Assembly: GCA_016934715.1 (NCBI GenBank)
Contig: JAFGSI010000056.1
Span: 1 to 64,000, forward strand
From: Anaerolineales bacterium
Lineage (GTDB): Bacteria > Chloroflexota > Anaerolineae > Anaerolineales > Villigracilaceae
Direction of reading: 5' to 3'
DNA length: 64,000 nucleotides
Below the pieces are notes generated by a model, which was given only the letters and a program-made list of their open reading frames with translations, searched no databases and was not told where the DNA came from. The position numbers and the translations under genes are program-made. The first letter of the stretch is position 1, and the number at the start of each line of letters is the position of its first letter. This document shows positions 11,036 through 64,000 of the stretch, one piece after another.

Positions 11036-11108
11036 CGCCCCTGGCGAGATTCGAACTCGCGGCCTCTGGATTCGAAGTCCATCACTCTATCCGCTGAGCT
11101 ACAGGGGC
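11036..11108 (-). tRNA. tRNA-Arg (anticodon TCG)
   Basis: Read on the minus strand, GCCCCTG pairs with CAGGGGC as the acceptor stem. A standard D arm (GCTCAGCGGATAGAGT), a CTTCGAA anticodon loop and a GAGTTCGAATCTC T arm follow. The anticodon TCG reads CGN arginine codons. The 3' CCA is not encoded. Confidence 0.93.
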
Positions 11109-61138: not shown

Positions 61139-61166
61139 TTGACAACGCAGAGAATGTGCATATAAT
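61139..61166 (+). promoter_or_regulatory. consensus promoter of the ilvD-ilvB transcript
   Basis: A perfect TTGACA (61139-61144) and a perfect TATAAT (61161-61166) are separated by 16 bases. The predicted start is near 61173, about 200 bases before ilvD, leaving a long leader. Confidence 0.85.
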
Positions 61167-61187
61167 ACGGCGAAATACCTGCTGCTT

Positions 61188-61286
61188 ATGAATACTCTTT
61201 CCTTGCTCCTGGTTGTTATTTTGATTGAGGTCCTAATCCTTAAGGACCTATTCCAGGTTGGGAAGGCCGGAGTGCGAGCCAGGTAG
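61188..61286 (+). CDS. branched-chain amino acid leader peptide (attenuator)
   Basis: A 32-codon frame (ATG 61188, TAG 61284-61286) begins MNTLSLLLVVILIEVLIL. Thirteen of residues 4-18 are Leu, Val or Ile, and residues 6-13 run LLLVVILI without a break. The start lies about 15 bases from the predicted transcription start, so translation begins on a very short leader with no clear ribosome-binding site. The peptide precedes a strong hairpin and then ilvD, the exact arrangement of an ilv attenuator. Ribosome stalling on these codons when branched-chain aminoacyl-tRNAs are scarce would favour read-through. Function is inferred from layout. Confidence 0.8.
   Translation: MNTLSLLLVVILIEVLILKDLFQVGKAGVRAR
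61228..61262 (+). promoter_or_regulatory. attenuator pause hairpin and antiterminator segment
   Basis: AGGTCCT (61228-61234) pairs with AGGACCT (61243-61249), a 7-bp hairpin inside the Leu/Ile codons. Just after it, AGGTTGGG (61255-61262) is an exact complement of CCCAACCT (61321-61328), which forms part of the 5' arm and loop of the terminator. Pairing of these two segments would prevent the terminator. The alternative structures were found by eye and not folded by energy. Confidence 0.55.
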
Positions 61287-61311
61287 AATAAGAATACCAG
61301 GTCAACGAACA

Positions 61312-61347
61312 GGAGAGCCGCCCAACCTAGGGCGGCTCTCCTTGTCT
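61312..61347 (+). terminator. ilv attenuator terminator hairpin
   Basis: GGAGAGCCGCCC (61312-61323) pairs perfectly with GGGCGGCTCTCC (61330-61341) around an AACCTA loop, followed by TTGTCT. It lies 25 bases after the leader stop and 31 bases before ilvD. The T tract is weak, but the 12-bp GC stem is strong. Confidence 0.75.
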
Positions 61348-61372
61348 ATACAAGCCTGGAGAGAAGAGAGCC

Positions 61373-63046
61373 ATGCGTTCCGACACGATCAAGAAAGGTT
61401 ATCAGAAGGCCCCGCACCGTGCCCTGCTGCGCGCCACCGGCGTGCGGGAGGAGGACATGGGAAAGCCCTTCGTAGCAATTGTCAACTCGTACATCGATAT
61501 CATCCCGGGCCATGTTCACCTGCAGGAGTTCGGCCGGATTGTGAAGCAGGCCGTGCGGGCCGCCGGGGGGGTGCCCTTCGAGTTCAACACCATCGGGGTC
61601 GACGATGGCATTGCCATGGGGCACGCCGGGATGAAGTTCTCCCTCCCGTCACGCGAGCTGATTGCCGACAGCGTTGAGACCATGGTCCAGGCGCACCAGT
61701 TTGACGGCATGGTGTGTATCCCCAATTGTGACAAGATCGTACCAGGCATGTTGATGGCGGCACTGCGCGTCAATATCCCGGCGATTTTCGTCTCCGGCGG
61801 ACCGATGGCAGCCGGGCGCATGCCCGACGGGGAAGTGGTTGACCTGATCACCGTCTTCGAAGGGGTCGGGGCCTATTCGGCTGGCAAAATAGACGAACAG
61901 CGCCTGACCGACCTCGAGCGCCACGCCTGCCCCTCCTGCGGTTCTTGCTCGGGGATGTTTACCGCCAACAGCATGAACTGCCTGATGGAAGCCCTCGGCA
62001 TGGCCCTGCCGTACAACGGGACGGCCCTGGCCCGCAGCGAGCAACGCGAAGCCCTGGCCCGCCAGGCCGGAGCCCGGATCCTCGCCCTGATTGCCAGCGA
62101 TCTCAAGCCGCGCGAGATCGTTACTGCTGAGGCGATTGACGATGCCTTTGCCCTGGACATGGCCATGGGCGGCTCGACCAATACCGTTCTGCACACCCTG
62201 GCTCTGGCCCAGGAGGCCGGGGTAGAGTATCCGCTTGAGCGGATCAACGCGGTGGCCGACCGCGTGGCCCACATCTGCAAGGTCTCGCCGTCGGGAAAGT
62301 GGCACGTCGAGGATGTCCACCGCGCGGGGGGCGTCCCGGCCATCCTGAACGAGGTTCAGCGCGGAAATGGGAGGCTGCACCTCGACCGGCCGACAGCCAG
62401 TGGTTCGACGCTGGGCGAGGCGATCGCCGGGGCAGAGATCCTGGACGACGAGGTCATCCGACGGGTTGAGAATGCTTATTCCAGCCGCGGCGGGTTGTCG
62501 GTCCTGTTCGGCAATCTGGCTCCGGGCGGGGCAGTGATCAAGACTGCCGGAGTGGGCCAGGTGATGCGCAGGTTCGCCGGCCCGGCCCGCGTCTACGAAT
62601 CCCAGGATGAAGCCCTGGCGGGCATCCTGGCCGGACAGGTCCAGCCCGGGGAGGTTGTTGTCATCCGCTACGAGGGGCCCAAGGGCGGTCCCGGGATGCA
62701 GGAGATGCTCAGTCCGACCAGTGCCATCATGGGCCAGGGACTGGGCGACAAGGTGGCTTTGATCACCGACGGGCGTTTCAGTGGCGGGACGCGCGGCGCC
62801 TGCATCGGGCATGTTTCGCCGGAGGCAGCCGCGCGCGGTCCGATCGCTGCCCTGCAGGCTGGGGACGTGATCGAGATCGACCTGGAAGCCCGCAGTTTGA
62901 ATGTCCGCCTGGAGCCCGCCGAGATCCAGGAACGTCTGGCAGCCCTGCCGCCGTTCCGGTCCCTGGTCACCAGCAAGTGGCTGCAGCGCTATGCCCATTT
63001 CGTCACCTCGGCCGACACCGGGGCTGTGCTGTCGATGGAGTTCTGA
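61373..63046 (+). CDS. ilvD: dihydroxy-acid dehydratase
   Basis: The 557-residue Fe-S enzyme dehydrates dihydroxy-acids in isoleucine and valine synthesis. Cluster cysteines are in [14 protein letters not shown] and [19 protein letters not shown]. Other family motifs are [27 protein letters not shown] and [37 protein letters not shown] precedes the ATG. It is the first structural gene after the leader and lies 25 bases before ilvB. Confidence 0.96.
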
Positions 63047-63071: not shown

Positions 63072-64000
63072 ATGAAACGTACTGGTGCACAAATTGTCTG
63101 GGAATGCCTGCAGCGCGAGGGCGTGGACGTGGTCTTTGGCTACCCAGGTGGGGCCAACCTGCCGATCTATGATGCGATGCGCGACTTTTCGATCCACCAT
63201 GTGCTTGGGCGCCACGAACAAGGCGTCACACACATGGCCGATGGATATGCGCGTGCCAACGGCAGGGTCGGGGTGGCAATGGCGACCTCCGGTCCGGGGG
63301 CGACCAACATGATCACCGGCATTGCCACTGCCAGTATGGACTCGTCGCCGATTGTCTGTATCACAGGCCAGGTGGCCAGTAAGTACATTGGCTACGATGC
63401 TTTCCAGGAGACGGACGTAACCGGCATTTCCCTGCCGATCACCAAACACAATTTCCTGGCGATGCAGGTTGAAGAGATCATGCCCGCGATCCGGCAGGCG
63501 TTCTACATTGCCCGCTCGGGCCGCCCCGGCCCGGTGCTGGTCGACATCTGCAAGGATGCCCAGCAGGCGGTGATCGAGGACTGGCAGTACGATGAGAGCC
63601 CGATTCGCCTGCCAGGCTACCGCCCGGATCTGGCGCCGGTCCCGGAGAAGATTCGCTCAGCGGCCGAGATGATCAATGCCGCCAAACGCCCGGTAATCCT
63701 GGCCGGACGCGGGGTCCTGTTGAGCGGGGCGACTGACCTGCTGCGCCAGTTCGCCGAGAAGGCCCAGGTCCCGGTTGCGCTGACCCTGCTGGGGATCGGC
63801 GCCATGCCGGCCAGTCATCCGCTCAACATGGGCATGATGGGGATGCACGGCGAATCATGGGTCAACCAGGCGATTCAGAACGCCGACCTGCTGTTGGCCT
63901 TTGGGATGCGCTTCGATGATCGGGTGACTGGCAATGTCGAGACCTATGCAGTCAACGCCCGCAAGATCCACATCGACATCGATCCGGCTGAACTGAACAA
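63072..64000 (+). CDS. ilvB: acetolactate synthase large subunit (partial, runs off the window)
   Basis: The first 309 residues are visible. They include the TPP-dependent enzyme N-terminal domain (VFGYPGGANLPIYDAMR, the activating Glu in GRHEQGVTHMADGYARANG, ATSGPGATNMITGIATA) and the central domain (RPVILAGRGVLLSGA, AFGMRFDDRVTGN, IHIDIDPAEL). It condenses pyruvate to acetolactate or with 2-oxobutyrate. AAGGAGGAAG precedes the ATG at 63072. The regulatory subunit ilvN would be expected beyond the window edge. Confidence 0.96.
   Translation, partial: MKRTGAQIVWECLQREGVDVVFGYPGGANLPIYDAMRDFSIHHVLGRHEQGVTHMADGYARANGRVGVAMATSGPGATNMITGIATASMDSSPIVCITGQVASKYIGYDAFQETDVTGISLPITKHNFLAMQVEEIMPAIRQAFYIARSGRPGPVLVDICKDAQQAVIEDWQYDESPIRLPGYRPDLAPVPEKIRSAAEMINAAKRPVILAGRGVLLSGATDLLRQFAEKAQVPVALTLLGIGAMPASHPLNMGMMGMHGESWVNQAIQNADLLLAFGMRFDDRVTGNVETYAVNARKIHIDIDPAELN

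Follow-up and report, generated by a model that had tools for sequence, protein, structure and literature searches.

A putative ribosome-mediated attenuator upstream of the ilvD gene series in an Anaerolineales bacterium, with candidate arginine and threonine/methionine counterparts in Chloroflexota

What lies upstream of ilvD at this locus? The window, by which we mean the whole 64,000-nucleotide stretch of DNA analysed here, carries near its end, on the forward strand, ilvD (dihydroxy-acid dehydratase; 61373-63046; NCBIfam TIGR00110 at 813 bits against a cut-off of 618) and ilvB (acetolactate synthase large subunit; 63072-64000, running past the window). The same-strand series reads ilvD-ilvB-ilvN-methyltransferase-ilvC-leuA and is followed by a PEP carboxykinase gene; from ilvN onward it lies beyond the window. 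A prephenate dehydratase gene ends just 5' of the ilvD leader. Within the leader, whose features are all on the forward strand, the sigma-70-type promoter TTGACA-16-TATAAT (61139-61166) matches the consensus at 12 of 12 positions. It is the sole site listed between 60600 and 64000 at a threshold of 9/12 (shuffles average 0.6), and its 16-nt spacer is retained in the closest relatives. The leader peptide ORF, MNTLSLLLVVILIEVLILKDLFQVGKAGVRAR (61188-61286), comprises 32 codons and a stop codon, with no Shine-Dalgarno sequence seen. Its codons 4 to 18 (61197-61241) read L S L L L V V I L I E V L I L and form the putative control-codon run; CTG makes up 58% of the Leu codons in 33 mechanically chosen ORFs of the window versus one of eight in the leader.

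An inner hairpin with 7-bp arms (61228-61249) sits within the control codons. It is compensated among relatives, for example GGTTCTCGTTCTTGAGAACC (L005) and GGTTCTTATTATTAAGAACC (L015) versus GGTCCTTATTATTAAGGACC (L011), and it is probably a pause hairpin or a spacer. In the minimum-energy fold a long imperfect hairpin (61193-61274) sequesters the antiterminator strand and would thus act as an anti-antiterminator. Complementarity and covariation define the two antiterminator strands: the 5' strand is AGGTTGGG plus GGC (61255-61267), and the 3' strand, in the terminator 5' arm and loop, is GCC plus CCCAACCT (61317-61328). A second short helix joins 61265-61267 with 61317-61319, and the whole duplex has a predicted energy of -19.4 kcal/mol. 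The intrinsic terminator is a stem-loop of 13 bp with a 6-nt loop (61311-61342), and its U-tract, TTGTCTATAC (61342-61349), is weak, with five T in eight. Together with that of L024 this tract is the poorest among the 29 attenuators compared below, 27 of which have at least six T in eight, and a terminator scan of the window sequence does not list the ilvD terminator for the region.

Most of this anatomy had been pointed out in a preliminary description of the same DNA, and the promoter, the 32-codon Leu/Val/Ile frame, the inner hairpin and the exact complementarity of AGGTTGGG (61255-61262) with CCCAACCT (61321-61328) are all present as described. A perfect terminator stem does precede ilvD, but it is one base pair longer than the 12 bp given for it at 61312-61341. 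The fold of 61170-61372, which the same description had put forward as a check, is more stable than that of shuffled sequences (-78.7 versus -59.5 ± 5 kcal/mol; z = -3.83; 0 of 200 as good).

We propose that a classical ribosome-mediated transcription attenuator controls the ilvD-ilvB-ilvN-(methyltransferase)-ilvC-leuA series, which would form an operon. We consider this very probable in view of the computed anatomy, its conservation and covariation, and of how the codon run lies relative to the zone in which modelled ribosome stalling is effective. Transcription would start about 7 nt after 61166 and yield an almost leaderless RNA, on which a ribosome would start to translate the leader ORF. 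A shortage of charged Leu, Ile or Val tRNA would make this ribosome stall at 61197-61241, where it would cover the 5' arm of the long hairpin and leave 61255-61267 free to pair with 61317-61328. The antiterminator so formed would block the terminator, and the genes would be transcribed. With the tRNAs charged, the ribosome would continue to the stop codon at 61284-61286 and the long hairpin would recapture the antiterminator strand; the stem at 61311-61342 would then form, and transcription would end at about 61345-61350.

How well do ribosome positions account for such a switch? We calculated partition functions for RNA that extends as far as the terminator loop while masking the ribosome footprint codon by codon, a thermodynamic model only. 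For the window's element the antiterminator probability is 0.40 when the RNA is ribosome-free. It rises to 0.70-0.98 when the ribosome stands on the Leu/Val/Ile run and is 0.89 at Lys19, but falls to 0.00-0.06 from Asp20 on, with a value of 0.01 at the stop codon; high scores are also seen at N-terminal positions that precede the codon run. Across the 29 elements, mean probabilities of 0.75-0.92 result when the ribosome stalls 5-20 codons before the antiterminator strand, and Leu, Ile and Val codons account for 322 of the 503 stall positions with a probability of at least 0.5 versus 156 of the 446 others. The mean probability is 0.44 without a ribosome (above 0.5 in 14 elements) and 0.47 with the ribosome at the stop codon, and the repressed state is therefore not uniformly explained by equilibrium folding. 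Thus, the model yields a clear 'off' state for the window's element and a less clear one across 29 relatives, and elements that antiterminate at the stop codon require an explanation by kinetics or ribosome release.

Leader and terminator were also compared across relatives. The set of 29 attenuators includes L019, L020 and L021 and leaves out L013b, in which the script found no terminator. Scoring the duplex of each leader with the terminator 5' arm and loop gave -20.2 kcal/mol for own pairs versus -15.4 ± 0.5 kcal/mol for permuted pairs, with 0 of 100,000 permutations as good; for 36 distinct sequences, mostly close relatives, the values are -19.7 versus -18.3 kcal/mol, again with 0 of 100,000 as good, and since the rows are related these p-values are optimistic. 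The segments paired in the preliminary description thus covary. The pair table covers 24 of the 29 elements, as five lack an anchor, and one of the 24, L010b, is out of register. In this table helix position -1 is GC in 14, GU in three, UA in three, AU in two (one of them L010b) and CG in one. The terminator stem does not explain this covariation because the 3' partner lies in the window's terminator loop. Dinucleotide shuffles are as good in at most 6 of 200 cases for 21 of the 29 duplexes and in at least 9 of 200 for the other eight, which include the window's (18), L029 (34) and L034 (69). Similarly, when partners are swapped among the 29 elements the own partner ranks 1st to 7th for 25 of them, and 12th for L017, 15th for L033, 21st for L013a and 25th for L041b. 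A mutually exclusive, covarying antiterminator is found over the set, not in every element singly, and the case for the window's antiterminator rests on conservation and covariation, its own duplex alone being unexceptional.

Conservation was assessed at three depths. In a first search of 41 genomes of relatives ilvD was present in 27, and a homologous leader with a Leu/Val/Ile run was read at 19 of 19 loci with an ilvD of 70% identity or more along almost the whole gene. We then used a covariance model, R2, which was built from a five-sequence seed and extended to 26 sequences (L019, L020 and L021 are outside these 26) and whose structure comprises the inner hairpin and the terminator only. 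Among 152 genomes of the family, R2 matches occur in 104 and ilvD in 107; both are present in 102, and in 101 of these the element lies directly 5' of ilvD. The preliminary description had named the loss of the codon run or of the complementary pairs from relatives that keep ilvD as contrary evidence; what we find is that 102 of the 107 keep the element. The other five (G013, G097, G103, G104 and G105) have only a divergent ilvD of 44-45% identity, and in G013 the contig stops 52 nt upstream of the ilvD match. By place, 109 of the 123 R2 matches in the family are located 17-376 nt upstream of ilvD. The remaining 14 comprise two cut by contig ends (in G113, the 102nd genome, and one in G127), two before ilvE (G066 and G065), two before argG (G148 and G121), one before lysC (G112) and seven that we judged by eye to be chance matches (G143, G117, G149, G129, G011:C66, G155 and G073).

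Several arrangements stand apart. In seven genomes (G003, G047, G059, G066, G121, G139 and G157) ilvD is divergent, at 41-43% identity, and the attenuator is still upstream, possibly a case of gene replacement under one leader. Two tandem attenuators precede ilvD in G005, G011, G024, G082, G095, G107, G109 and G110, and also at L041, where the second leader has a Shine-Dalgarno-like sequence (AGAAGGA), as perhaps does L010. The genomes G001 and G002, of the window's own genus, have neither an ilvD match nor an element match, and they are possibly branched-chain amino acid auxotrophs.

Across a sample of 400 genomes of the phylum, R2 matches 46 and finds no match in 354. Nineteen of the 46 belong to the family and 27 lie outside it (five in the rest of the order, 13 in the rest of the class and nine in the rest of the phylum). 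Outside the order, 19 loci were read from the 22 matches, and in all 19 the element precedes ilvB or ilvD. Of the five order-level loci outside the family, three are before ilvD and two before a LivJ-type gene (L174 in G488 and L175 in G322). In these last two the element precedes a gene for a LivJ-like substrate-binding protein, not a biosynthetic gene; a domain test on L174 identifies the periplasmic-binding-protein gene as Peripla_BP_6, and no ilvD, ilvB or ilvE occurs within 1.5 kb downstream at either locus. Short ORFs rich in Ile, Leu and Val also precede ilvD at L035, L042, L043, L046 and L052, from Ignavibacteriae, CSSED10-310, Bacteroidetes, Neomarinimicrobiota and an unlabelled bacterium. 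A terminator is present at L052, which also matches the model weakly (E = 0.006); at L035, L042, L043 and L046, from other phyla, no clear terminator was found.

The ilv version may have an additional effect on translation. The terminator 3' arm (61334-61340) can pair with the ilvD ribosome-binding site (61358-61372), and the corresponding pairing is seen in L004, L008, L053, L116 and L134, for example between GGCTCTCTTTT and AAAAGAGAGCC in L053. Own partners outscored permuted partners in two sets: 135 of 100,000 permutations were as good for 36 distinct sequences (from 42 of 58 loci that could be parsed) and 490 of 100,000 for 22 sequences (22 of the 29 elements, excluding tandem first copies, L024, L028 and L029), with a mean gain of about 1 kcal/mol and with related rows in the sets. 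When released, the terminator 3' arm may thus mask the ilvD ribosome-binding site.

The weak R2 matches before argG and before the aspartokinase gene lysC pointed to leaders of other amino acid specificity. For argG, a match was obtained in 40 of the 61 relatives of G148 and 30 loci were fetched; the window's genome was added, and L198, L206 and L209 were dropped (6, 80 and 135 nt upstream, below 177 nt). By script, with a leader defined by at least three of the named residues in eight codons, an Arg-rich leader and a terminator precede argG in 25 of the 28 loci. Of those missed, L201 and L204 both have an Arg leader on reading, and L207 is cut by the contig. For lysC, a match was obtained in 47 of the 61 relatives of G112 and 30 loci were fetched; with the window's genome added and L233 dropped (85 nt upstream), the script finds a Thr/Met leader and a terminator before lysC in 28 of 30 loci, and L239 and L242 have no leader before lysC. 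The argG attenuator loci (most of L183-L212) extend beyond the family to other families in the same order; those of lysC are most of L213-L241. Downstream of lysC in G126 lies a SAM riboswitch at gathering score (L215:4132-4254). The window's genome carries MFPTCLPRARRPKPTTRQGRMGFRASVRCF before argG (L243, G000:C1) and MFTCRMTTATTMMTQIPLGRLCMGRER before lysC (L244, G000:C42), with predicted antiterminator duplexes of -24.1 and -21.1 kcal/mol, respectively.

In the ribosome-position model, Thr and Met codons make up 180 of the 415 stall positions that give antitermination in lysC leaders versus 30 of the 348 others, and Arg codons 77 of 326 versus 62 of 419 in argG leaders, a modest enrichment; since the leaders were selected by the residue criterion, these counts hold within leaders so chosen. 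At the stop codon the mean antiterminator probability is 0.33 for argG and 0.46 for lysC. For the window genome's own two elements it is 0.62 and 0.85, respectively, and this preference speaks against a simple equilibrium 'off' state. The argG element is a candidate arginine attenuator and the newest part of the finding: to our knowledge no other transcription attenuator that senses arginine and acts on a bacterial arginine biosynthesis gene is known, which would make it the first, and a search of the literature by title returned no description of a bacterial argG leader peptide. Elsewhere in the window's genome (L294 and L295, G000:C74) lie two short, near-leaderless ORFs whose Phe/T-rich ends lead directly into a terminator. 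This precedes genes for an Amidohydro_1 protein, which we take to be dihydroorotase, and a Xan_ur_permease, an arrangement resembling pyrBI-type (UTP-sensing) attenuation.

How do these leaders begin? Among the 18 ilv leaders with a promoter of 11-12/12, the distance from the -10 box to the start codon is 11-23 nt in 17. The window's peptide had been called nearly leaderless in the preliminary description, and the term suits these 17 and fails for L034, where the distance is 41 nt. A Shine-Dalgarno-like sequence is found in three of 26 first ilv leaders. Spacing was also scored for 27 argG and 27 lysC leaders. With promoters of at least 10/12, the -10 box lies 8-14 nt from the ATG in 21 of 21 argG leaders and 8-13 nt in 24 of 25 lysC leaders; the one lysC outlier is that of the window's genome, which was scored on the wrong hexamers and starts 8 nt after TATATT. 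No Shine-Dalgarno-like sequence was found in any of the 27 argG or 27 lysC leaders. Given the short distances and this absence, the argG and lysC leaders are probably leaderless.

Could the short ORF, or the RNA around it, serve another purpose? The ORF might encode a functional small hydrophobic membrane peptide that the terminator merely separates from ilvD, and LSLLLVVILIEVLIL does resemble a transmembrane helix within a hydrophobic run that is conserved. However, the same layout encodes Arg-rich runs before argG and Thr/Met-rich runs before lysC, and the leader covaries with the terminator loop, which makes this reading very improbable. A leader that binds tRNA or a metabolite (a T-box or riboswitch) might instead control the terminator and leave the ORF incidental; the accessible text of PMC2965389 reports that T-boxes and leader peptides swap before the same genes across bacteria. 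Yet the leader matches no Rfam leader family, the T-box model included, at gathering score in the window and ten related loci. The only match at that score in the window is a tRNA (11036-11108), the single match in the related loci is the SAM riboswitch of L215, away from the leader, and a permissive Rfam scan gave sub-threshold hits only, for example Phe_leader at 20.2 bits versus 55. Given the lack of an Rfam leader match in the window and these ten loci, we regard this second reading as exceedingly unlikely and reject it, as we do the membrane peptide.

A third reading accepts attenuation as real and lets the nascent peptide sense by arrest, in place of codon-level stalling on uncharged tRNA. 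The argG leader PRTRRPKPTS is nearly letter-for-letter constant in most g9 genomes read, and one other family has RRARRPQPTS, a constancy beyond the needs of codon sensing alone. Against this, L, I and V interchange in the ilv leaders, as codon sensing predicts, and constraints on the RNA may also fix residues; we think an arrest peptide very unlikely here. Ribosome stalling on the control codons, the mechanism that the preliminary description had put forward, is supported by conservation, by covariation of the antiterminator and by the modelled ribosome positions.

Ribosome-mediated attenuation of amino acid genes is known mostly from Proteobacteria and Actinobacteria and from some Firmicutes. 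Canestrari et al. (2020) reportedly described mycobacterial leaderless poly-Cys short ORFs as amino-acid-responsive attenuators, which concern cysteine and another phylum, and a 2010 comparative survey by Lopatovskaya et al. (doi 10.1134/S0026893310010164) could contain earlier Chloroflexi predictions. Among the papers listed from the literature searched, most subscription papers lying outside its scope, we found no description of attenuators or leader peptides in Chloroflexota, in keeping with the earlier remark that few examples are known from this lineage. The accessible text of PMC2965389 gives Proteobacteria and Actinobacteria as the groups in which leader peptide systems had been demonstrated prior to its hisS case in Firmicutes, and its main text does not mention Chloroflexi; the accessible text of PMC4833913 refers to Chloroflexi only to note that the group has too few genomes.

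Several known systems resemble the ilvD leader, as far as the accessible text of each source goes. In Mycobacterium tuberculosis ilvB1NC, an actinobacterial system with a 166-nt leader and transcript mapping, a uORF with 'LVVI' codons precedes the branched-chain operon; a ribosome at the stop codon masks about 26 nt and the terminator forms, and a stalled ribosome leads to the antiterminator (PMC13236596). Unlike it, the series studied here has ilvD first, a near-leaderless start and, in some genomes, tandem copies. Likewise, the ilv leader of Corynebacterium glutamicum ilvBNC, in another phylum, has a terminator, an antiterminator and an anti-antiterminator, a three-hairpin attenuator tested by mutation (PMC11857589). 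Actinobacterial ilvB/trp/leuS attenuators also place a predicted leader peptide and a terminator upstream of ilvB; they too belong to another phylum, and the abstract names no argG or lysC members (PMC1262725). For arginine, pausing at consecutive Arg codons of the short ORF orf34 of Salmonella speF senses the amino acid; its target is ornithine decarboxylase, and the effect is exerted by way of Rho, RNase G and translation (PMC6386406), whereas the argG element has an intrinsic terminator upstream of a gene for arginine biosynthesis. Thus, the kind of attenuation is known, and the RNA family and its Arg and Thr/Met members in Chloroflexota appear to be undescribed in the literature searched.

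Finally, we give roughly even odds to a broader proposal, that leaderless or near-leaderless leaders make up an attenuation regulon in Chloroflexota, with Leu/Ile/Val, Thr/Met (lysC) and Arg (argG) versions, the Leu/Ile/Val targets being ilvD, ilvB, ilvE and, in two genomes, the LivJ-like binding protein. A conserved Chloroflexota set with minimal 5' UTRs and with Arg and Thr/Met versions suggests a mechanism that is more ancient than thought or evolves more readily. The finding would provide regulon annotation for a largely uncultured phylum together with a candidate new RNA family. The tandem copies, the divergent ilvD genes under the same leader and the placement before ilvE and a transport gene could serve as natural replicates for the evolution of the switch, and leaderless initiation becomes testable as a coupling device.
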